Shown here: in pieces, positions 2,466 to 64,000 of the stretch
How the letters are laid out: each line of letters starts with the position of its first letter
Numbering within the stretch: the stretch's first letter is position 1
Source of the DNA: Loxodes magnus
Taxonomy: Eukaryota > Ciliophora > Karyorelictea > Loxodida > Loxodidae
Assembly (NCBI GenBank): GCA_946699065.1
Contig: CAMPDV010002440.1
Coordinates: 1 to 64,000, forward strand
DNA: 64,000 nucleotides
Direction: 5' to 3'
Translations under genes and position numbers: made by a program
The notes under the pieces: model-generated
Database searches by the model: none
Told to the model about the DNA's origin: nothing
The model's input: the letters and a program-made list of their open reading frames with translations, nothing else

Positions 2466-3375
2466 ATGGTTGAAGGTTTCAAGTGAGGTTTCTATACCAC
2501 CTCTTCCTAAGCCAAAAAGGAAAGGAGGAAGCATGATACAAAGTCTTAATAATCTTAACAATCTTCTCTATCACAACCTTAACCAACACTGAACTAACAA
2601 CCTGGAATCTAACAAAACGAACGAAAGCCAACCTTGAAGAATATACACATGGAAACCCCAACCTCAAGTGAGAAACCGAGGAAACAGATGAAGTTTGTTC
2701 TCCACCAGGAGGTATCAGAGTTCAACCCTTCTGGCTTGATGAGCATGGAGTAACTCATCAAAGTGGTACTGAACCTCCAGGAAGAGGCCAAGAGATTGAA
2801 GAAGGACAATGATATGCTGATGGCAAAGCTAGACCTAGCAGAAGGAATTGAGTCAAGACTTATGTCCTAGGAAAGAGATCTTAACGCTTTTTGAAATATC
2901 TCACAAAGTCAGACTAACGAATCCGTAAAATTAGCTTTAGAAACAGACTGAACTGGATAACAGACTCGGAAAAATAGAAGAGAAATTGTAAACTTTTAAG
3001 AAAGAGTAAAGCGAAACTGGAGCTATACAAATAGAAATCGAAACCTAGAAAGAGCAAACAAATCAAGGAAAATAATTCAAAATAAAAAAGAAATGTTTCT
3101 GCTGTGGAAACGTATGACGTTTTTATCAGGAGTGAGAAATTCTAATAGAAATAAAGAAACTATTGGATAAAAGAGCAACAAAAGAAGAAAAAAGAAGAAG
3201 CAAGAATGAAAAGAATGTATTGCAACCTGGATGGTTCAATATACAAGATCAAGATGAAACCATATCAAGTAAAAGGAAGGAAAACTTGGAGAAACCCGAG
3301 TTCCCAATCTCGCTAATATTGGACGTCCCAAACATTTATATTAACAGCATTGAGCATGAACTGCTGTACTCCTGA
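2466..3375 (+). pseudogene. Gag-like ORF of a retroelement with 3' hairpin, copy A, frameshifted
   Basis: The ORF starts at ATG 2466 and runs through a Gln/Ser/Pro-rich N-terminus, a conserved block (HQEVSEFNPSG, MSMEQLIKVVLNLQEEAKRL) predicted to be a coiled coil, and a Cys-rich knuckle (KCFCCGNVW). It ends HELLYS at TGA 3373-3375. Compared with the copy at 22941, one extra base near 2930 shifts the frame, so the gene is broken. At aligned positions this copy has CAG where the other has TAG, and TAA where the other has CAG. TGA is shared before the NIS motif, which supports TGA as a sense codon. The 3' hairpin follows immediately. Its role is inferred to be nucleic-acid binding, like Gag or LINE ORF1. 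Confidence 0.6.
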
Positions 3376-3420: not shown

Positions 3421-5550
3421 ATTATAATTAACCATATAAAAAATTTAATAATTCTGATTCACATTTTCTTTAACATTAAATACTTTCATTTTATTTATTT
3501 ATAATAATTACCAATATAATTATAGGCCTTATTAATTGATTTTAAGCTTTTATTTCCTTAATTTTTATAAATGATATAATTTATCTAATTTTATTTATAA
3601 CTAGTTTATAAAATAACTAATTTATTAATTAAGATTTTATTTATCTACATTTATTTTTAGTTTCATTATTTTAGTTAAAATAATTTCGAAGAAAATATTT
3701 AGGTGATTAAGTCCTTCTAGAAATTTCAATTTCTCAAGTTTATTATAATAACATAAATCTTTGTTTCTCTTTGATTTTTTGCTTTAATCATAGCCATTCA
3801 ATCTTATAACTAATTACTTTTTAATCTAAAAATGTTTACAGTATTTTAATACACTTTGTAATTATCCTTCTGATTTTTGCTTATAAGGTTTTTACGCTTT
3901 AGCAAGTTTATTTTAATGAAGATAGTTCTTTTATTTCGATTCTTTCTAAAAATGAATCAATTTAGATCTTATAAGTAAACTTATCTTTTTTCAATTTTGC
4001 TATTTTTAAAGTTTTAACAACTTTAAAAAAACAGAATAAAAAGTTTAAAAATGTTATATAATATAAATTACTAAATTTATTTCATAATATTAACATTTAT
4101 TAGAAATGTTTATAAGAAAATGGAAAAAATATTATGTCATTTAAGATTTTGCATCCAATTTTTTAAATCTTTTTTATTGCGAAATTAAAATTATTAAAAA
4201 TCAATAAAAGAGAAATCAATCTTTAATATTACACTAGTAGTTTTTTCTGCTTTTTTGCTAAGACAAGCATCAAATTTAGAAAGATAGAAGTATCTGATTC
4301 TTTGCTTCTTAAATTAGTTGTTTATTTATGTAAATTATGTAATTAACTTTTAATTATTCCATTAGTTATATTTTGATCTAATTAAGATATATTTTTACCA
4401 AAACAATTTTACTTAAATTTGAATTTTTCATTTAATATCTTTTACAAATATATACTAAAATTTGATTTTGCATATTTATTAAATGTGATTATTTAAATTA
4501 TATCTAATTTGACAAAATATTTAAATTTAGCTTAATAAGCTAAATTTATCTAATAATTCATATTTCGTTACGATTTAATAAAGTATAAACTAAAAAAATT
4601 AAAAGAAATAACACCTTATCTATACTAATTAGGAAAAAGTAAAAAAACTTAATATTTCAAAATTTTTTCGTAAAAATAGATTTTATTTATAATAAAAGAC
4701 TGATCTATATTAATTTAAAAATATTTGATCAAAAAATCACACTATTTTTTACAGCTCCAAGATATCCATTTGTTTCCATAAAAAACATTTTTATAATACT
4801 ATTGGAAATAAATAATAGTGATTATTTAAGATTTGCATTTCTCTATTTTTAAAGTTACTATTTTGCCTATTTATAACTAAACTTATTATATCAATAAGTT
4901 TTATTTTGTAAATTTATTCCTTTTTGTGATAACTTGAATTTAAGGTTTTAAGTTTGTTATCACCTTTACAAATTTATTATTATGAGTAAGCAAATATTTG
5001 TACTCTGATAAAGCTAAATTTTTAATAATTAAAGTAGATTAAAATAATTTGATTGGATTATTGTTTTACTAGACTTTTATTTAATTATATTTATTCGATC
5101 CAATTTTAAGAATTATTCATAGCTTAATTTTAATTATTTTTGTATAAAAGCATGCAAATCAATTATTAGGTTAAAATGGCTAGTTACAATTATTTATAAT
5201 ATTTAGCATTTAATAAAAATTTATTTTAATTATAATTAAGAAATTTTTATGCTGATAGAAAAGAGCTTAAATAAGTAAAGAAATTCCAAGAATCATAGAA
5301 ATCATAGTAGAATCAAATTTCGACTATTAATTATAACCACTTTAGTATAGGATAATCTTGATAGTAAATAAAATGTGCTAAAATAGTAGGTTTTATACAT
5401 TATAAAAAATGCTCTATTTGATATGAAGAAATACTACAATTATAGCAAAAATTGCTTTAGCGAATTTAAGATATTGGTAAATATTAATGCATTAATGGAT
5501 ATTAAGTTATATAATTTTCAAGGATAAAGCACTTCAAACTAAAAAATGTC
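3421..5550. other. AT-rich interval, no gene recognised
   Basis: About 2.1 kb of AT-rich sequence. I saw no stretch with convincing protein-like composition in either strand under the TAR=Gln, TGA=Trp code and no repeat shared with the rest of the window. Weak coding segments with many introns could have been missed. Confidence 0.4.
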
Positions 5551-22940: not shown

Positions 22941-23815
22941 ATGGAAGGATTCAAAAGTGGTTTCTACACCACATCCAAAAAGTTGGAGGGGAAACCTGAA
23001 TCCAATCTTGGATAGTCTTCTTACCCTTAACCCTAACCTTTTTCTTAATTCTAATAACCTGAAGAGGAACAGAAACAAGCTCAGAAGACAACACATGAGA
23101 TAACTCCTACCTCAGAAGAGAAGCCCAGAAAGTAGATGAAGTCTGCTCTGCACCAGGAGGTCTCAAAGTTCAATCCTTCTGGCCAGATGAGCATGGAACA
23201 GCTCATCAAAGTGGCACTAAACCTCCAGGAAGAGGTTAGGAAACTGAGAAAGGACAATGAAAAAATGATGGAAAAACTCAACCTAGCGGAAGGAATAGAA
23301 TCCAGACTTATGTCCTAAGAAAGAGAACTAAGCGCTTTCTGAAACATATCTTAAGATTAGAGTAGCTAATCCTAAAATTAGCTTCGGAAACAATCTGAAA
23401 TGAGTATTAGACTGGAAATACTAGAAAAGAAATTAGATGAACAAAGGGGAGATCCAATGATGATTGAAGAGACCAATAGGAAGACTAAAGTTAAACTCCA
23501 AAAAGTAGTGAAGAAATGTTACTACTGCAATTCAACAGAAAACTTATGAAGACACTGCAAGGAATTCCAAAATTTCAAGACGTAGTACTGGAATAAATAA
23601 AGAACCATACAAGCACAGTAGAGGATGAAAAAACAAATGTAGTAGAGACAAATAAGAGAAAGATTATACTTAAATGAATAAGGATACATTTACAAGAGAA
23701 AATTTAATTAGAAATAAGGCTAGATCCGGAAATAACAAGAGTAATAGGAGGAGAGAGGAGTAGAGACATCTAAAACTTTATTTTTAACACTGGAGCAATC
23801 TGGTGTCCAGCATGA
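22941..23815 (+). CDS. Gag-like ORF of retroelement, copy B (best preserved)
   Basis: Starts at ATG 22941 (MEGFKSGFYTTSKKLEGK). It has a Gln/Pro-rich segment, then the conserved block HQEVSKFNPSGQMSMEQLIK with a coiled coil (LNLQEEVRKLRKDNEKMM) and a Cys-rich knuckle (KCYYCNSTENLWRHCKEF, Trp from TGA). The C-terminal segment reads LDPEITRVIGGERSRDIQN and ends FIFNTGAIWCPA at TGA 23813-23815. The last part is in a different frame from the knuckle, so one indel lies between about 23620 and 23680. The copies at 60323 and 50799 share the FIFN-x-x-AIWCPA-TGA ending. NTGA resembles a retropepsin DTGA with Asp lost, but that is only a resemblance. Presumed nucleic-acid-binding retroelement protein; no RT follows in this copy. 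Confidence 0.6.
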
Positions 23816-23816
23816 A

Positions 23817-23860
23817 GAGGTGAAAATCCTCGAAAATTGCTAAACTTAATTTATCCTATT
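23817..23860 (+). repeat. 3' hairpin GAGG-TGAAAAT-CCTC and tail
   Basis: A perfect 4-bp stem (23817-23831) begins two bases after the TGA stop; sequence then runs TAAACTTAATTTATCCTATTATT. The same 3' end is found, inverted, at 60290-60321 and 50765-50798. Confidence 0.7.
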
Positions 23861-23861
23861 A

Positions 23862-24520
23862 TTATTTAAATTTACTAAAAATGTCTATACTATATTATTT
23901 ATAATAATAAAAAAGTTTGAATTTTGGAGCTCTCTCTCAATTCTTCTACCCTTGTATTAAATTTTATTCTAACTCTTCTTTTACAGTTAATGTGTTGATT
24001 TAATTTCACTTTTTTAAAATAGAAGTTCTTTTTCAAACATTTCTTTTTACTCAATGATTTATATTCTTCTTCTGAGCAGTTTTTTATGAAAAATCTTGAT
24101 TCTAAGGTCAATTTTCTTGAGCTACTGAATACTTGTAAAATTTTCATTTAAATATTTTTGGTTATAGGTTAAGAGCTTTAATAAATCATAATTTTTTAAG
24201 TCTTTAAATTCTTCAATTAACTCTTTCAAGACCTCACATGTTGGAATATGTTTAAAAGTATCAGGTCTCCGCAAGAACATGTTTTAGAGCTTTAAATGTT
24301 ATAATGCTTTTACAGCAAATCATATTAGAAGTTGTAGGAAAATGTTCTAAGCTTATAAATCGATAAAATTTCTCTTACCATATGTTTGTTAAGATTAGAG
24401 TAACTGTAAATTGGGAATTATGAAGAGTTATTGTCAATTTCATCTGAACATAAGCATTCTGTAAGCATTAAGTTCATTCTTCTTATTGAATCTTAATAAA
24501 ACTTTTGTCTTATTTTATTA
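23862..24520 (-). CDS. Unassigned helical protein, 3' part
   Basis: The minus strand reads RRPDTFKHIPTCEVLKELIE, KNYDLLKLLTYNQKYLNENF, LKKIDLRIKIFHKKLLRRR and FEKELLFQKSEIKSTHQ. The composition is clearly protein-like, with long amphipathic helices. The frame runs open into the tail of the retroelement at 22941-23860 without an intervening TGA, so that element may have inserted near the 3' end of this gene. Upstream, to about 24,500, an in-frame FAVKALQHLKLQN segment continues it. No family recognised. Confidence 0.4.
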
Positions 24521-45457: not shown

Positions 45458-47708
45458 ATGGCTGAATCTAACAGGTGCAGCTCATGCTTAATCCATTTCG
45501 ACTCTTAAATACGAATTCCCGTAACCCTTCCTTGTGGACATAAAGTATGCCAAATTTGTATTCTTGAAGAATACTTAAAAGAGGGTTCTAATCAGTGCCC
45601 AAAAAGAAACTGTAGAAAAGTTTCATTCAATGATCCGAAAAATTTAATGAGCTAAAATAGCTAATCAAGTGAAAGTAACCAAGAATATAAATAACTTCGT
45701 CTTGAAGAAACTAAAATTGAGCTATCTTATTAGCAAAAACCAAAACTAATAAAAGTCAAGATTTTAAGTGAAAATGAAGAAGAAATAAACTTAAATGTAG
45801 AGGAAGGAGAAACAATTGAATAACTGAAATAAAAAGTAGAAAGATTAGAAGGAATTGACACTGATTTTTATGAACTTTATAGAGGATAAGAGGAATTAGA
45901 TAGTTAGCATAGAATAAATAAAATAGAGAATAAAGATGAAGTTTAGCTAGACTTAAAGTTGAAAGAATGTAATTAATATAAATTTAAGGAGGTGAGATAA
46001 TAAGATAAAATTTAGGAAGTAAATATTAAAAATAGGAAGTAATTAATCAAAATTAGTTTTGGAGATAATGAGAAAATAATAAGGTAAATAATATAATAAT
46101 AGAATGTAAATAATAAAATTAGAAAGTATTAAATAATAAAAAATAGGAGAAAGTAAGAAAATTTAAAGAAGGCTGAAATGACTTCGAAAAAAGTTTGAAA
46201 TAATGTACAGGAAGTAAATTTTAAAAAAGTGCGTAATATATTTATCAAAAGTTAGTAATACTTTAAAAGCTAGAAAGTAATAAATAAAATTTAAGAATGT
46301 AATAAAATAAATAAGATTGTAAAAATATAAGAAAGGGAGTAAAAACTAAATATAGAATGTAAAAAATAAAGAAGATTGTAAAAAAATTATGTTAAGCTGG
46401 TAATTTAACAAATCCAGAAAGTAAATTATTTAATATATAGCAAGTAAAAAAAACAAATAAAGGAGGTAAAAATTAAAATAAGATGGTATTACTAATAAAA
46501 ATAGAATGCATGATATTTTAAATATTTATAGAGTGTAAGATATTTTAAATATTTATAGTTGGTAAGATATTTTAAATATTTATAGGGAGTAAGATATTTT
46601 AAATATTTATAGTGAGTAAGATATTTTAAATATTTATAGCGAGTAAGATATTTTAAATATTTATAGATAGTAAGATATTTTAAATATTTATAGATAGTAA
46701 GATATTTTAAATATTTATAGCGAGTAAGATATTTTAAATATTTATAGTTGGTAAGACATTTTAAATATTTATAGAACGTAAGATATTTTAAATATTTATA
46801 GTTGGTAAGATATTTTAAATATTTATAGTGAGTAAGATATTTTAAATATTTATAGATAGTAAGATATTTTAAATATTTATAGCGAGTAAGATATTTTAAA
46901 TATTTATAGAGTGTAAAATATTTTAAATATTTATAGGGAGTAAGATATTTTAAATATTTATAGTGGGTAAGATATTTTAAATATTTATAGGGAGTAAGAT
47001 ATTTTAAATATTTATAGTTGGTAAGACATTTTAAATATTTATAGAACGTAAGATATTTTAAATATTTATAGTTGGTAAGATATTTTAAATATTTATAGAA
47101 CGTAAGATATTTTAAATATTTATAGGGAGTAAGATATTTTAAATATTTATAGAATGTAGGATATTTTAAATATTTATAGATAGTAAGATATTTTAAAATT
47201 TATAGGGTGTAAGATATTTTTTATTCATAGTTTGTATTTAAAAACTATTATAGCTCGTATTTTTTTATTATTATAAGAGGGTATTAAATTACCTCAGACA
47301 GTAAGAATCTACTTTAGGTATCTTTTTAATTTTTGATTGTAAGAAATAATTATAAGATGGTTTTGCTTTTATTGAAGCTAGTATTTGATTATATGAGCTT
47401 GTATTGTTTTACCTAAGTTAGTAAGAAAATTATATAGAATGTAATATTATTTTTATTTATAGGGGGTAATGATTGATTTGAAAAGAAAGTAATTCCTAAT
47501 ATAATGTATTAAAGAATGTTTAAGTAATTGTTAATTTTAGATTATTTATACTAGGTAACTTTTTTTTATTTTAGGATGTAAAGAATTTAATGATAAGTAA
47601 ATTTTTTATTATAGAGTGTAATTTTTGATATAAGCGGAGATGGATATAACATTTGACGACTTTAAATATTTATCTTAAATTAAAGTTTTATTATTTATTA
47701 ATTTTTGA
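45458..47708 (+). CDS. RING finger plus ubiquitin-like protein with an array of about 65 mini-introns
   Basis: Exon 1 (45458-45968, 511 nt) encodes MAESNRCSSCLIHFDSQ. A RING finger follows: C-x2-C, then LPCGHKVCQICILEEYL, then QCPKRNC. Next is a ubiquitin-like fold (KLIKVKILSENEEEINLN, EGETIEQLKQKVERLEG, DFYELYRGQEELDSQ, DEVQLDLKLKE). A C3HC4 RING implies an E3 ubiquitin ligase; the UBL domain would mediate ubiquitin-system contacts. Exon 1 ends one base into a codon. From 45969 to 47634 the sequence becomes consecutive GT...AG units separated almost always by 3 nt. Joining the spacers in phase gives ILEIMRKQQEQ, KGWNDFEKRMLKKYWKY, NNTIELVNTKWMGIELE and SQDSIFLIFDYATFKWEK, then MDITFDDFKYLSQIK and TGA 47706-47708. 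Predicted length about 275 residues. Caution: the first codon across intron 1 is TGA, so a shorter protein ending after the UBL domain is possible. Confidence 0.6.
45969..47634 (+). repeat. Tandem mini-intron array with single-codon spacers
   Basis: I count about 65 units. Flanking units (45969-46505 and 47210-47634) are unalike in sequence and 16-26 nt long, but each begins GTA (rarely GTG, GTT or GC) and ends AG. Adjacent units are separated by exactly 3 nt; the few longer spacers (27, 24, 21 and 6 nt) are also multiples of three. The central 46507-47200 part repeats GTAAGATATTTT...ATTTATAG (24 nt) with period 27. Its spacers run agt, ttg, gga, tga, cga, ata, ata, cga, ttg, aac, ttg and so on. 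Variable unit length rules out a simple in-frame peptide repeat. The units are AT-only apart from the splice-like ends. Confidence 0.85.
46507..47202 (+). repeat. 27-bp minisatellite: invariant 24-mer plus variable trinucleotide
   Basis: About 25-26 near-perfect copies. Differences inside the 24-mer are rare (GTAAGACATT at two places, GTAAAATATT once, GTAGGATATT once, GCATGATATT at the first copy). The 3-nt spacers take many values. Blocks of spacers recur in order (ttg-aac-ttg twice; tga-ata-cga and tga-cga-ata-ata-cga), showing expansion by multi-unit duplication. Confidence 0.9.
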
Positions 47709-55110: not shown

Positions 55111-55968
55111 ATGATTAACAAATACGAAATTTTTCCAAACCTTTGCCATTAATAGTTTAAAATGTACTCTACTATTCTGTATTTTTCCAATACTTATCTT
55201 GCTCCAATTTTAGAAGTAGCTTATTAACGAATTCTAAAGTAAATGAAATTCCGAAATTTACAGGAAAATTATTACGTTGAATAGATAAAAGATGACTTAT
55301 TAATCTATTCTGGAGAAAGTAAATCTTCAAAAAGATTCACTATTCTTCAAATAGAAAATGATTATTATAAAACTTAAGAGTTGGAAACATTTTTTAGCAG
55401 AAGTCATCATGGGACTATATTTGATGATAAAGCTTCAATTTATTTAATAGGAGGAGAAACTACCAAATCACATGAAGTTTTTAATATGAAAACATTCAAG
55501 TTTACTCCTTGTTGCGAAGACTTTCCAATAATACTGAAAACGTTTGGACTTTGCTTAGTAAAAGAAGATTTTATTGCTTTTGCCAGGTTTGACTTTGATA
55601 AAAGATAATCTTAAAATTCTATTTATACTTATTCAAATATTGAATAGAAGTGAATACATTTATAAGTTTAATTTAAGAATAAAAGTTCATCAAGTGCTGC
55701 CTATTCAAAGAAAGAATAAAGTTGCTATATCTGATGTAGTGGTGGGGATTTAAGAAGAACTTTAGTTTATGACTTCAAATAAATAATAGATCATGGAGAA
55801 CAAATGGATGAAATTTCTTATATATATTCCAATCCTATTGTATAATGAACTTACATATTTTTCTTTAGAAACCCAGGAGAACTAAGGTTATATGCAATTA
55901 AAAGAGGAAAATGGAATTCAGCTAACATTTGTGGAAAAACACTAGAATTTGATAAAATATTAAAATGA
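55111..55968 (+). CDS. Kelch-repeat protein
   Basis: A single uninterrupted frame of 286 codons from ATG 55111 to TGA 55966-55968, using TAR as Gln. Kelch-like blades are visible: DLLIYSGESKSSKRFTIL, ASIYLIGGETTKSHEVFNM (double Gly), YTYSNIEQKWIHLQV and CYIWCSGGDLRRTLVYDF. Trp in QKW and YIW and in VQWTYIF is encoded by TGA, exactly where kelch blades carry aromatic residues. About five blades fit the length, short for a complete propeller, so a 5' exon may exist (the frame is open upstream). A role in protein-protein contacts, for example as a ubiquitin-ligase adaptor or signalling protein, is family knowledge, not seen here. The paralogue at 29515 is decayed. Confidence 0.7.
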
Positions 55969-60289: not shown

Positions 60290-61210
60290 AAGTTTAACAA
60301 TTATCGAGGATTTTCACCTCTTCATGCTGGACACCAGATCGCTCAGATGTTAAAAATAAAGTTTTAAAGGTCTCTCTTCCTCTCTCCTCCCATTGCTCAT
60401 GTCATTTCCAATTCTATCTCATTTCTAATCAGATTTTCTCTTGTAGATGAAACCTAATTCATTTAGGTATAATCTCTCTCTGATTTGTCTCTATTTAATT
60501 TGATTTTTCTTCCTCTGCTGTGCTTGCATTCTTCTTTGTTTATTCCAATATTACGTCTTGAAATTTTGGGAATTTCATGCAGCGTCTTCACAAGTGTTTT
60601 GTCGAATTGCAGTAGTAACAATTCTTCACTGCTTTTTGTGGTTTAATCTTAGTCTTCCTGTTGGTCTCTTCAATCATCATTGGATTTCTCCTTTTTTCGT
60701 CTTGCTTTTTTTTTAATTTTTCCAGTCTGTTACCCAAATCAGATTGTTTCTGAAGCTAATTTTAGGATTAGTATATATGGTCTTAGAATATGTTCAGAAA
60801 GCACTTAGTTCTCTTCTTAGGACATAAGTTTGGATTCTATTCCTACCCGCTAGGTTGAGTTGTTCCATAAGCTTCTCATTATCCTTCCTCAGTTTCCTAA
60901 CCTCTTCCTTAAGATTCAGCACCACTTTGATGAGCTACTCCATGCTCATCTGACCAGAAGGGTTAAATTCTGACACCTCCTGGTGAAGAGCATACTTCAT
61001 CTGGTTTCTTGGCTTTTCCTCCAATGTAGGACTTATTAAGTGAATCGCTTTCTAGGATTTCTTCTGTTCGTTATATCCTGTTTAAATTCCAAGTTGTTAA
61101 GATTAAGAAGAAGGCTAAGGTTAAGAAAAAGACGACTGGCCAAGATTGGATTCAGGTTTCCTCTCCAACTTTTTGGAGGTGTTGTAGAAACCTCTTTTGA
61201 ATCCTTCCGT
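60290..61210 (-). pseudogene. Gag-like retroelement copy C (minus), start codon lost
   Basis: Nearly full-length relative of copy B. The start is ACG (61210-61208) instead of ATG, then EGFKRGFYNTSKKLERKP, HQEVSEFNPSGQMSME and a CYYCNSTKHLWRRC knuckle. The end is AIWCPA with TGA at 60325-60323. Frameshifts are present in the middle (for example around 60,840-60,850). Hairpin GAGG-TGAAAAT-CCTC at 60321-60307 and TTAATTCACCCTATTATT tail follow. TGA at the shared Trp positions is conserved between copies B and C. Confidence 0.6.
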
Positions 61211-62196: not shown

Positions 62197-64000
62197 TCAT
62201 TCTAATAATAGACTTTAAAAGAGATTATTTTAGAAGCAAATGTTCCGTGTTTTTAAGTTAGACAACATTTTTAAAAGTGAAGTAATAGGAATTCTATAAA
62301 TATGCTTGTTAATAAACTTATAATATTTAGAATAAAACAAAAGAACTATCAAACTGTAAAAGATATAGCAATCATGTTTAATTATATCTACCTTTTAACA
62401 CCCAAATAATTAGTTCCTCAATAATTCCATAATATCGCAATAAAGTTACTTCATTTGGAATAACAAACTTTTGACATACTATCAAGATCTTCTTTAATAA
62501 TATGTTTTATTCTTATATTTTTTCCTATGTAAAACTTACAAACAATATCTTACCAAATTTCTTCAGGATTATCTTAGCATTCATTATTTTTACATTTTTT
62601 ATAAATCTATAGATATAAAAACTTCTTTCTGTCTTAGAATCTTTTATTTAAATTGTTTTATCATTACTTCCTTATATTATAATCTGTTATCATTAGTTAT
62701 CACTACTGAACTAGCATAACTAATATGACTTACTAACTTTGTCGATTAACAAAAATTATCCTAACTCATTTTTGCATTATTAAAGTTGCTTTGCCTCAAT
62801 CATGCTCTACTGAAATTAACTTTATTCAGATTAGAATTTCTCAAATCACAACTGTCAAATATTGAATCACTCAAACCTGCTTCAGCTACTTATCGATCAA
62901 AAAAGTTCTATTGCATAAACTGATAATCCATCCATTTCACTTTTGAAATACAGTTAATAGCTATCTATTATAACTTCTTATTTTCTTTTGTCAACTTTAC
63001 TATCTCCAACAAATATTTTTCATAATTCACTCGCTCATTTATTTCACAAACTATTATATCTCCTAAGTGTCCACTATAGAATACTTATTTATATGGTGAT
63101 TCTCAATGATGTTTCTATTACTTTGTAAATTGAGAGCTATATTTACTGTATCCCTTGCGATATAGTAATCTCTTATCGAAGTATGGATAAATTAAAATAT
63201 TTTCTTTTAGTTCTAATTTTTGGTTTATATCCTATATGGTTTTTCAGTAAATTACTGAATTAACTTTTAAGTAGCTTAATCTATCTAACTCTAACTGACC
63301 CCTTAACATTTAATATGGTGCACTTATCTAAATATGCTGAAATATTTTTCTAGTTGATTGCTATTGATCGTAACCTATATCCTGCAACTTTTTGTATATC
63401 TTTTCATTCCATATAAAGATATATTTTTGGTTTTATAGTTTTTAAATAGTTGATTATTTGTTCTTCACTCATATATATAACAAAAATGGATTATTAAAAA
63501 TATCGATTAATCCTGGAATATTTGAGATAATGTTGATATATTCTTTAACCTCAGTATTTTGTATTTACTTTTCTTTGTACTTGTATTTGGATTTTTATTT
63601 TGCTCTTTATCTAGTTTCCCTCATGAATAACTTTATATATTTATTCTATCTAATTTTTATCAAAAGCTTTAAAACTCTTCCAACTCTTATGTTTAAGCCT
63701 TTTCATTTTTGTAAGGAGAATAGAAATTCCTATAGTTTTCAGCTGTCATAGTTAATTCTGCATATATATATTGCTTAAGGATATTTTTTGCTTATTGCTA
63801 CCGATAATAGCTATATACTAGCCTAATTCATCATATGCGTCCTATAAAAATAGTAGCTTCTTAAGTTTCAAATTTTCGTTCAATTTAATAGTTGATTAAA
63901 GCAGATTCTACTAAATTGTTTTCAAATGCTTTAATAGTTGGAAGGTTTACGTATATAGGGTAAGTACTCATGCTTTTACTCCAGATACTTTAATGCTAAA
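62197..64000 (-). CDS. NACHT-type NTPase with pentapeptide repeats (3' part)
   Basis: The gene enters from the right edge; its P-loop lies outside. Inside are a Walker B-like KLKKLLFLQDAYDELG, the following SNIYMQNQLWQLK, KAFDKNQIEQIYKVI and, after a 19-nt intron at 63568-63550, EYINIISNIPGLIDIFNNPF with LLYIWV. This order (LxxDGYDEL, PFxxxQIxxYI, tPFxLxII) matches the STAND/NACHT NTPases abundant in ciliates. Toward the C-terminus, GLSDSIFDSCDLRNSNLNK and VNFSRAWLRQSNFNNAKM look like pentapeptide repeats. The frame stays open for about 1.35 kb to TGA 62199-62197. Expected role: ATP-dependent oligomerising sensor or scaffold (family knowledge). The frame continuity and perfect intron repair make coding status strong. 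Confidence 0.65.
63550..63568 (-). other. 19-nt GT-AG intron (predicted)
   Basis: GTAAATACAAAATACTGAG is the only nearby segment whose removal joins QVQRK to VKEYINIISN in frame. Its form (GTA ... AG, AT-rich, under 25 nt) is the same as the units in the 45969-47634 array. Confidence 0.6.

Follow-up and report, generated by a model that had tools for sequence, protein, structure and literature searches.

A RING finger gene family of the ciliate Loxodes magnus with a predicted array of single-codon exons between mini-introns

A 64,000-nucleotide (nt) stretch of the karyorelict ciliate Loxodes magnus (contig CAMPDV010002440.1 of assembly GCA_946699065.1; hereafter the window, meaning the whole of this stretch) carries a gene whose first exon encodes a RING finger and a ubiquitin-like (UBL) domain. 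Behind this exon, from 45969 to 47634, the sequence is a chain of units with GT/GC...AG ends, mostly 16–26 nt long and spaced exactly 3 nt apart. Very probably these units are spliceosomal introns which, together with single-codon exons, form a frame-neutral, hypervariable coding cassette array, a reading in which splicing is deduced from the sequence. It draws on the spacing and the ends of the units, on the retention of both in distant paralogs, and on the peptides that the joined exons spell in these paralogs.

Under this explanation, the coding sequence after exon 1 would be cut into single-codon exons by introns of 16–26 nt. Each intron of the 5' (head) and central zones would sit after the first base of a codon, so that a 3-nt exon would complete one codon with two bases and open the following one with its third. 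Because the exons are 3 nt long and all in one phase, loss, gain, skipping or recombination of units would be frame-neutral. The introns would be recognised singly (intron definition); recognition of exons is not expected, because 3-nt exons leave no room for it. In the sub-family to which the window belongs, tandem copies of a single 24-nt intron would have taken over or enlarged the middle of the array, and the 3-nt exons lying between them would now form a hypervariable series that almost no two gene copies share. The gene would encode a RING+UBL protein with a conserved head and tail and a hypervariable middle. Here we infer RNA splicing of the introns, translation of the middle and ligase activity of the product.

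Architecture of the array and its first exon

A dynamic-programming parse favouring 3-nt exons chained 65 introns across the array, and a hand count after re-parsing the 3' (tail) zone against the aligned tails of relatives gave 66 introns and, between them, 65 internal exons, of which 58 measure exactly 3 nt. Both counts agree with the first-pass annotation, made from the sequence alone, which had placed about 65 mini-introns here. The early parsers favoured 3-nt exons and fixed the first exon (the end of exon 1) at 3 nt; in an unbiased recount, with no exon-length preference and the first exon omitted, 59 of 67 internal exons between 45900 and 47640 were exactly 3 nt. The 3-nt spacing of GT/GC...AG units that had been described is borne out by a longest strict chain of 46 units at this spacing, against at most five in dinucleotide shuffles of the array (n = 500). 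Spacings of 0, 1, 2, 4, 5 and 6 give chains of at most three units on either strand, the other strand likewise reaches two or three, and the remainder of the window holds no spacing-3 chain above three units.

Two details of the earlier description need amendment. The longer spacers were said to be multiples of three throughout, which is true of most of them, whereas the last ones measure 9, 14 and 22 nt (45 in sum). The units were said to vary in sequence and length in the flanking zones, as they do, but the middle of the array is made of near-identical 24-nt introns and falls outside that description. This central zone is a 27-base-pair (bp) tandem array in which only the 3 nt between the introns vary (Table 1).

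Exon 1 leaves in phase 1, as annotated. It contributes one base to the next codon, exons whose length is a multiple of three keep the phase, and all internal exons of the head and centre start at codon position 2; in the model of the window, a late tail exon of 22 nt begins at codon position 1. The reading needs TGA to encode tryptophan, as in the karyorelict code, and the first codon past the exon-1 junction is itself T|GA. In the same code TAA and TAG encode glutamine, and TAR codons lie within exon 1. With TGA as tryptophan and in the exon-1 phase, the joined exons read EWGRILEIMRKQQEQREKGWNDFEKRMLKKYWKYSETRDEQ in the head, FGMTNNTIELVNTKWMGIELERKYRF in the centre and SQDSIFLIFDYATFKWEKCLNYLYQDVKNLMIKSEMDITFDDFKYLSQIKVLLFINF in the tail, and the chain continues to MDITFDDFKYLSQIKVLLFINF followed by TGA. 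The first-pass annotation had followed the joined chain to the same end and stop, leaving unstated the tryptophan reading of TGA on which it depends. Near 46147–46192, the exon pairs GAGAAA/24 nt and AAA/21 nt represent alternative acceptors 3 nt apart, both in frame. The last exon is 74 nt long in 35 of 36 aligned tails, although several copies have lost the stop, and the last-exon reading of the divergent copy L056/L057 is related to that of the window. A stop-to-stop survey of open reading frames in the window is uninformative in such AT-rich DNA.

Table 1. Predicted features of the gene in the window.
Feature	Position	Strand	Basis
Exon 1: RING finger and ubiquitin-like domain, exit phase 1	45458..45968	+	Pfam scan
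5' head zone: 23 diverse putative introns of 16–24 nt; 23 exons, most of 3 nt and others of 27, 6 and 24 nt; KGWNDFEKRMLKKYWKYSETRDE forms part of the joined peptide	45969..46507	+	parse, 39-copy alignment, divergent paralogs
Central zone: 26 near-identical putative introns of 24 nt (first GC-AG, last 23 nt) with variable 3-nt exons between	46508..47205	+	
3' tail zone: 17 diverse putative introns of 17–26 nt; exons of a single codon and longer ones of 21, 9, 14 and 22 nt; the peptide after joining is SQDSIFLIFDYATFKWEKCLNYLYQDVKNLMIKS	47206..47634	+	
Last exon EMDITFDDFKYLSQIKVLLFINF, ends in TGA	47635..47708	+	aligned tails

Exon 1 matches the Pfam family zf-C3HC4 with 24.6 bits (cut-off 21) and has the C3HC4 pattern of zinc ligands; its match to the Pfam family ubiquitin, at 22.7 bits, lies below the cut-off of 25.4. 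Sequence matches in the PDB are to the RINGs of TRIM21, TRIM25 and TRAF6, and the Pfam scan of the spliced reading found no SPRY/B30.2 domain. The pooled ratio of nonsynonymous to synonymous polymorphism (pN/pS) in exon 1 is 0.35 across 31 distinct copies, and the corresponding ratio of divergence (dN/dS) to an old paralog is 0.51. As judged by these ratios, exon 1 evolves under purifying selection. The product is probably an E3 ubiquitin ligase, with the activity predicted from its domains.

Conservation among close copies and old paralogs

A genome search with the spliced protein gave 135 matches at about 134 places (134 of 2,746 candidates scored), a number that may include both haplotypes; all of them start in or cover exon 1, except for one short second piece of a copy. 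A RING-centred pattern was found at 195 places and its reversed control at none. Forty loci (L016–L055) were compared together with the window, and L022 and L023 were dropped because their series of 3-nt central exons (slots) equals that of L020, leaving 39 close copies. All 39 have a head and a recognised central chain, whose length ranges from 21 to 134 units with a median of 57. A tail was found in 36 and could be aligned in 35: that of L024 did not align, that of L025 shows a one-base exon loss, and L038, L040 and L045 have no tail within the fetched stretch.

In these copies the splice ends are the most strongly kept part of the units. GT/GC...AG ends are present in 2305 of 2336 central introns. 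Among the 2194 central introns of 24 nt, the initial G is changed in six, the final A in none and the final G in two, while positions 3–22 show between 3 and 148 changes each. Position 2 is changed 68 times, at least 44 times to C, which gives GC donors. In the head, diversity is 0.014 at intron ends versus 0.058 in interiors (L037 left out), and in the tail 0.002 versus 0.073 (L024 and L025 left out). Thirteen of the 23 head introns vary in length among the 39 copies; the head exons are constant in length except in L037, which has a deletion read as in frame, and in L033, which has lost one base and carries other lesions too. Of the 2336 central slots, 2321 measure exactly 3 nt, and 12 of the 15 irregular ones fall in L024, L030 and L035.

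The intron lengths of the window fit those of L. magnus introns supported by RNA sequencing (RNA-seq), for which the genome paper gives a mean of 19.3 nt, a mode of 17 nt, 93% at most 25 nt, and an avoidance of lengths that are multiples of three (PMC11441545). The central introns bring in another possibility, namely that the central zone stays unspliced and that its 27-bp units are a coding minisatellite of nine-residue repeats. A length of 24 nt is a multiple of three, these introns lack TGA in the exon-1 frame, and 16 of the 39 copies have only 24-nt central introns. This reading is nonetheless highly improbable. The other 23 copies carry the 142 central introns (of 2336) that are not 24 nt, and none of these is a multiple of three (22, 23, 25 or 26 nt); moreover, old paralogs have mixed intron lengths throughout, and the splice ends are the most conserved positions. 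The coding minisatellite and a plain satellite were both rejected on the strength of the intron length changes and the old paralogs.

The first-pass annotation had also considered that the units might be eliminated from the DNA. In this case they would resemble internally eliminated sequences (IESs), removed during nuclear development to leave a contiguous gene in the macronucleus. DNA elimination is known in ciliates, and the units are short and AT-rich. The probability of this alternative is negligible, because the assembly that contains the units (705,730,643 bases in 7,843 contigs) has the size of the published macronuclear assembly (706 Mbp), which suggests that it too is macronuclear, and because the same paper reports no canonical IESs in L. 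magnus (PMC11441545). The GT...AG ends also fit introns.

The strongest evidence comes from five distant loci, C77, C4, C76, C27 and C10. C77 has an intact RING+UBL exon 1 of the same length, 58% identical on average and with the RING ligands kept; its 102 introns, of 16–25 nt, are all distinct (102/102). Exon 1 identity is 62% for C4, 51% for C27 and 47% for C76, where part of the RING is missing. In the far paralog C10, the RING region is 26% and a UBL piece 38% identical; its exon 1 has one in-frame TGA and ends in the same phase, 97 of its 99 introns are distinct, and it has no homogenised centre. The unbiased parse gives exactly 3-nt internal exons in 87 of 99 cases in C77, 98 of 108 in C4, 36 of 41 in C76, 39 of 42 in C27 and 82 of 99 in C10, against zero to three such exons in base-shuffled versions of these loci. 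Two further loci, C52 with a damaged exon 1 and C69 with none found, lie somewhat below the others in the same parse (22 of 29 and 20 of 26 exons). Taken together, these seven array loci outside the close group either have the family exon 1 or appear to be truncated or broken family copies. Separately, the C10 locus (L064, C10:1007900–1011900) possibly shows the ancestral state of the architecture.

The joined exons can be compared across this distance. Six heads (the window, L045, C77, C4, C76 and C27), parsed with a preference for 3 nt, share 15 matched positions, at which exon length varies in none and intron length in 13. Their pN/pS is 0.49 in the exon-1 phase versus 0.73 and 0.69 in the others, a value as low being reached in 19 of 1000 column shuffles. 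Between C77 and 38 close copies, dN/dS is 0.36 in the exon-1 phase and 0.58 and 1.26 in the other two. The motif [LS]KK[YF]WxYxExR[DE]E is kept across heads. The tryptophan of LKKYW is written T|GG in the window, L016, L045 and L060, and T|GA in L056, L059 and L061, a difference that is synonymous only if TGA encodes tryptophan and the exons are joined.

A similar picture emerges from the tail, where one codon per exon in the exon-1 phase reads EEDYQLFKWE in C10, EDDYALFKWE in C77 and FDYATFKWE in the window. The C77 and C10 versions are 80% identical over 10 residues, and the C77 tail matches C10 with an E-value of 5e-5 in the exon-1 phase. The C10 motif is absent from both other phases and from 20,000 shuffles of exon order. 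By these comparisons, old paralogs share peptides that are spelled by the putative single-codon exons when these are read in the exon-1 phase. The splicing of single-codon exons proposed at first thus finds strong support in paralogs that, with intron sequence and length changing, keep the splice ends, the 3-nt exons and the joined peptide in the proposed phase.

Several observations weigh against this explanation. Searches among about 5.8 billion proteins found no relative for exon 1 or the spliced part, and some family copies are broken. In the close copies, exon diversity (0.075) is on a par with that of intron interiors (0.064), and pooled pN/pS is not lowest in the exon-1 phase, being 0.74 versus 0.39 and 0.59 for the joined head and 1.20 versus 1.08 and 0.90 for the joined tail. 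Amino-acid composition in their head is slightly better in another phase. Insertions and deletions are about equally rare per base in central slots (15/7008) and central introns (142/56064), which makes central slot length alone weak evidence. The 24-nt length of 2194 of the 2336 central introns runs contrary to the avoidance of such lengths in L. magnus. In the far paralog C10, the automatic parse contains three exons that are not multiples of three, two of which shift and then restore the frame, and the phase assigned to its tail depends on this parse. The best match of the window tail to C10 (E-value 0.003) lies in another phase and is longer and free of the motif, whereas DYATFKWE/DYQLFKWE reaches 0.016. 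Finally, the codon formed directly past exon 1 reads TGA in 38 of the 39 close copies and in four divergent heads, and never TGG, so that a stop or regulated termination at this junction (45968–45991) is possible. As far as these comparisons reach, amino-acid constraint on the predicted array product is weak recently and visible only between old paralogs.

Some of these points would suit a gene that consists of exon 1 and a short tail only, with the array as a downstream non-coding minisatellite. Read without splicing, the frame stays open for 201–265 codons before it meets a TGA in 37 of 39 copies, and for 62 and 465 codons in the remaining two. The T|GA at the first spliced junction could be a stop, and the close copies show no amino-acid constraint in the array. 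Even so, this alternative is very unlikely. It leaves unexplained the conservation of splice ends far beyond the rest, the 102 different introns of C77 with their kept 3-nt spacing, the joined peptides kept in the exon-1 phase, and the low frequency of TGA in that phase only.

Predicted translation and variability of the central zone

In the joined central exons, TGA occurs 14 times in 2271 codons in the exon-1 phase, versus 289 in 2321 and 234 in 2271 in the others. Shuffling the slot order reveals no TGA depletion beyond slot composition (14 seen versus 11.5 expected). Since order shuffles leave the figure unchanged, the scarcity is a property of the slot alphabet, and it is the comparison of phases that carries the argument. 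In the divergent copies, the counts (3/182 in the exon-1 phase versus 11/194 and 12/182) are small and show the same tendency. Amino-acid composition is best in the exon-1 phase in 27 of 39 copies, and codon position 2 of the central slots is A-rich, as it is in exon 1. On the coding strand, C makes up 2.6% of the slots, 0.5% of the central introns and 11.9% of exon 1; with C nearly lacking in slots and introns, the RNA would have almost no G-C pairs.

The series of slots differs from copy to copy. Of 41 copies read, there are 39 different series, with L020, L022 and L023 sharing one. Six copies with an identical exon 1 (no difference in 510 nt) have six different series of 47–64 units, and the window and L036, with the same exon 1, have 26 and 76 units. 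In confidently placed units, 287 slot differences (587 units, 1761 bases) were counted versus 122 intron differences (about 14,088 bases); these counts come from pairs passing a similarity filter, which are not independent, and unit shuffling can mimic substitution. The close pairs L053/L054 and L031/L034 differ by blocks gained or lost; the slots of their confidently placed units are unchanged. From the slot differences and the gain and loss of blocks, the array seems to evolve by unequal exchange plus rapid slot change relative to its surroundings, and the identical introns would act as the recombination substrate. If the introns are spliced, the usual pattern is here reversed, with conserved introns and hypervariable exons. 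As a separate observation, the slot CGG in L025 is repeatedly tied to a GC-AG intron variant from about 1080 nt past the start codon; this two-unit block is repeated about nine times and looks like a recent tandem duplication.

The same variability could mean that head and tail are spliced codon by codon while splicing skips the central zone, whole or in varying parts, with its slots translated rarely or combinatorially. Identical donors and acceptors in the centre invite skipping, any skip keeps the frame, and the slots are hypervariable, as unconstrained bases would be. This version remains distinctly unlikely, as 2321 of 2336 slots have stayed at 3 nt, TGA is low only in the translated phase, the exon-1 phase gives the best composition in most copies, and the central introns of C77 have all diverged yet mostly keep the 3-nt spacing.

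A different question is how much of the family is alive. Homology to the window extends beyond the gene in both directions, in many cases as far as the fetched sequence reaches. Of the 40 places at which a stretch 2.3–2.9 kilobases (kb) downstream of the gene was scored, 38 lie on contigs with a listed family copy. As the homology runs past the gene and the downstream stretch co-occurs with copies, the gene sits in a larger repeated unit. In addition, the region C473 25305–136930 has eight exon-1 pattern places on one strand, most of them about 17 kb apart, and looks like a tandem family cluster. The family may be a spreading or decaying repeat within a multi-kilobase unit, with most copies silent. 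The number of matches, the shared surroundings and the lesioned copies speak for this idea, which is compatible with a spliced coding array. The purifying selection on exon 1 speaks against it, as do the 22 of 39 copies whose head, central chain and tail are free of defective introns and exons, by a test that skipped a few units between chain and tail and included four copies without a usable tail. We give it a small but real chance.

Beyond the coding cassette array itself, a more tentative proposal concerns its use. An old one-codon-per-exon cassette, in which introns carry the recombination homology and exons the variation, may yield a hypervariable segment for each copy by exchange and possibly by RNA skipping; we consider this conceivable and somewhat doubtful. 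A function as a recognition repertoire is speculation. If the cassette proposal is true, the repertoire would be analogous in logic to variable antigen-recognition genes, and roughly 60 to 170 tiny introns would be removed per transcript. It also suggests introns as frame-safe recombination sites for diversifying a protein.

Relation to known systems and to other sequences in the genome

TRIM-type RING ligases combine an N-terminal RING with a fast-evolving recognition region. The array gene is similar in having an N-terminal RING followed by a variable region, but its variability lies in single-codon exons. Schistosome micro-exon genes contain runs of symmetric micro-exons of 6–36 nt that can be skipped without a frameshift, and their product is secreted. 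The symmetric exon runs and the frame-keeping skips resemble the array; in contrast, their introns are ordinary and form no arrays of one repeated intron, and exons of 3 nt make up 58 of 65 internal exons here.

The bicycle and megacycle genes of aphids likewise form a large family that evolves fast and contains many tiny internal exons, almost all of them with their first base at codon position 2; the average bicycle gene has about 17 exons, and one megacycle gene contains over 100 microexons (PMC9168663). Unlike in bicycle genes, the exons of the array are predominantly 3 nt, its introns are 16–26 nt, and the intron sequence is homogenised while the exons vary. Single-nucleotide exons have been reported singly in Arabidopsis (PMC4674806) and in Fusarium CYP621A (PMC12940212); those are isolated, whereas here 3-nt exons come in arrays. 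Introners are many near-identical introns as well (PMC9860276), with the difference that the copies here are seen in tandem within one array. Typical introners are scattered over unrelated genes and bear marks of insertion.

A further comparison is with the L. magnus genome itself, whose introns and genetic code have the same length range and codon assignments as the array (PMC11441545). The macronuclear genome uses TGA as tryptophan or stop (table 27) and is rich in retroelements and tandem repeats, and the passages on introns and exons that were consulted in that paper describe no single-codon exons and no such family (PMC11441545). Exons of 3 nt would probably go unmapped by a spliced aligner, and since such arrays also resemble low-complexity tandem repeats, they are likely to be overlooked by ordinary gene prediction. 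A search by title and abstract of open-licence papers in PubMed Central (PMC) returned no gene with arrays of single-codon exons, in line with the earlier remark that no described gene of such structure was known. Among the systems compared, a gene built of single codons between 16–26-nt introns is without precedent. If the array is spliced, spliceosomes would act on introns 3 nt apart from dozens to more than 100 times per transcript, and the gene would put intron definition, exon-junction deposition and fidelity to an extreme test.

In the genome, the three-unit pattern TAG-3 nt-GTAAG occurs at 24,167 places versus 551 for its reversed form, and a looser array pattern at 5,455 places versus 161. 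Short runs of intron-like units with 3-nt spacing lie outside the listed family copies at C5:20645–20747, C6:137639–137723 and C12:964967–965068. At C6:517092–517525, a plain satellite of 10-bp units (TAGGTAGTAT) matches the loose pattern by accident. No match was returned when part of the array served as a DNA query, which is uninformative for simple repeats.

Elsewhere in the window, repeated retroelement-like frames lie at 2487–3329, 22941–23846 and 60370–61210, some with a CCHC-like motif that has TGA where tryptophan would fit; the second and third of these have no Pfam match. Kelch-like and pentapeptide-repeat coding stretches are present at 55186–55953 (+) and 62662–63102 (−).

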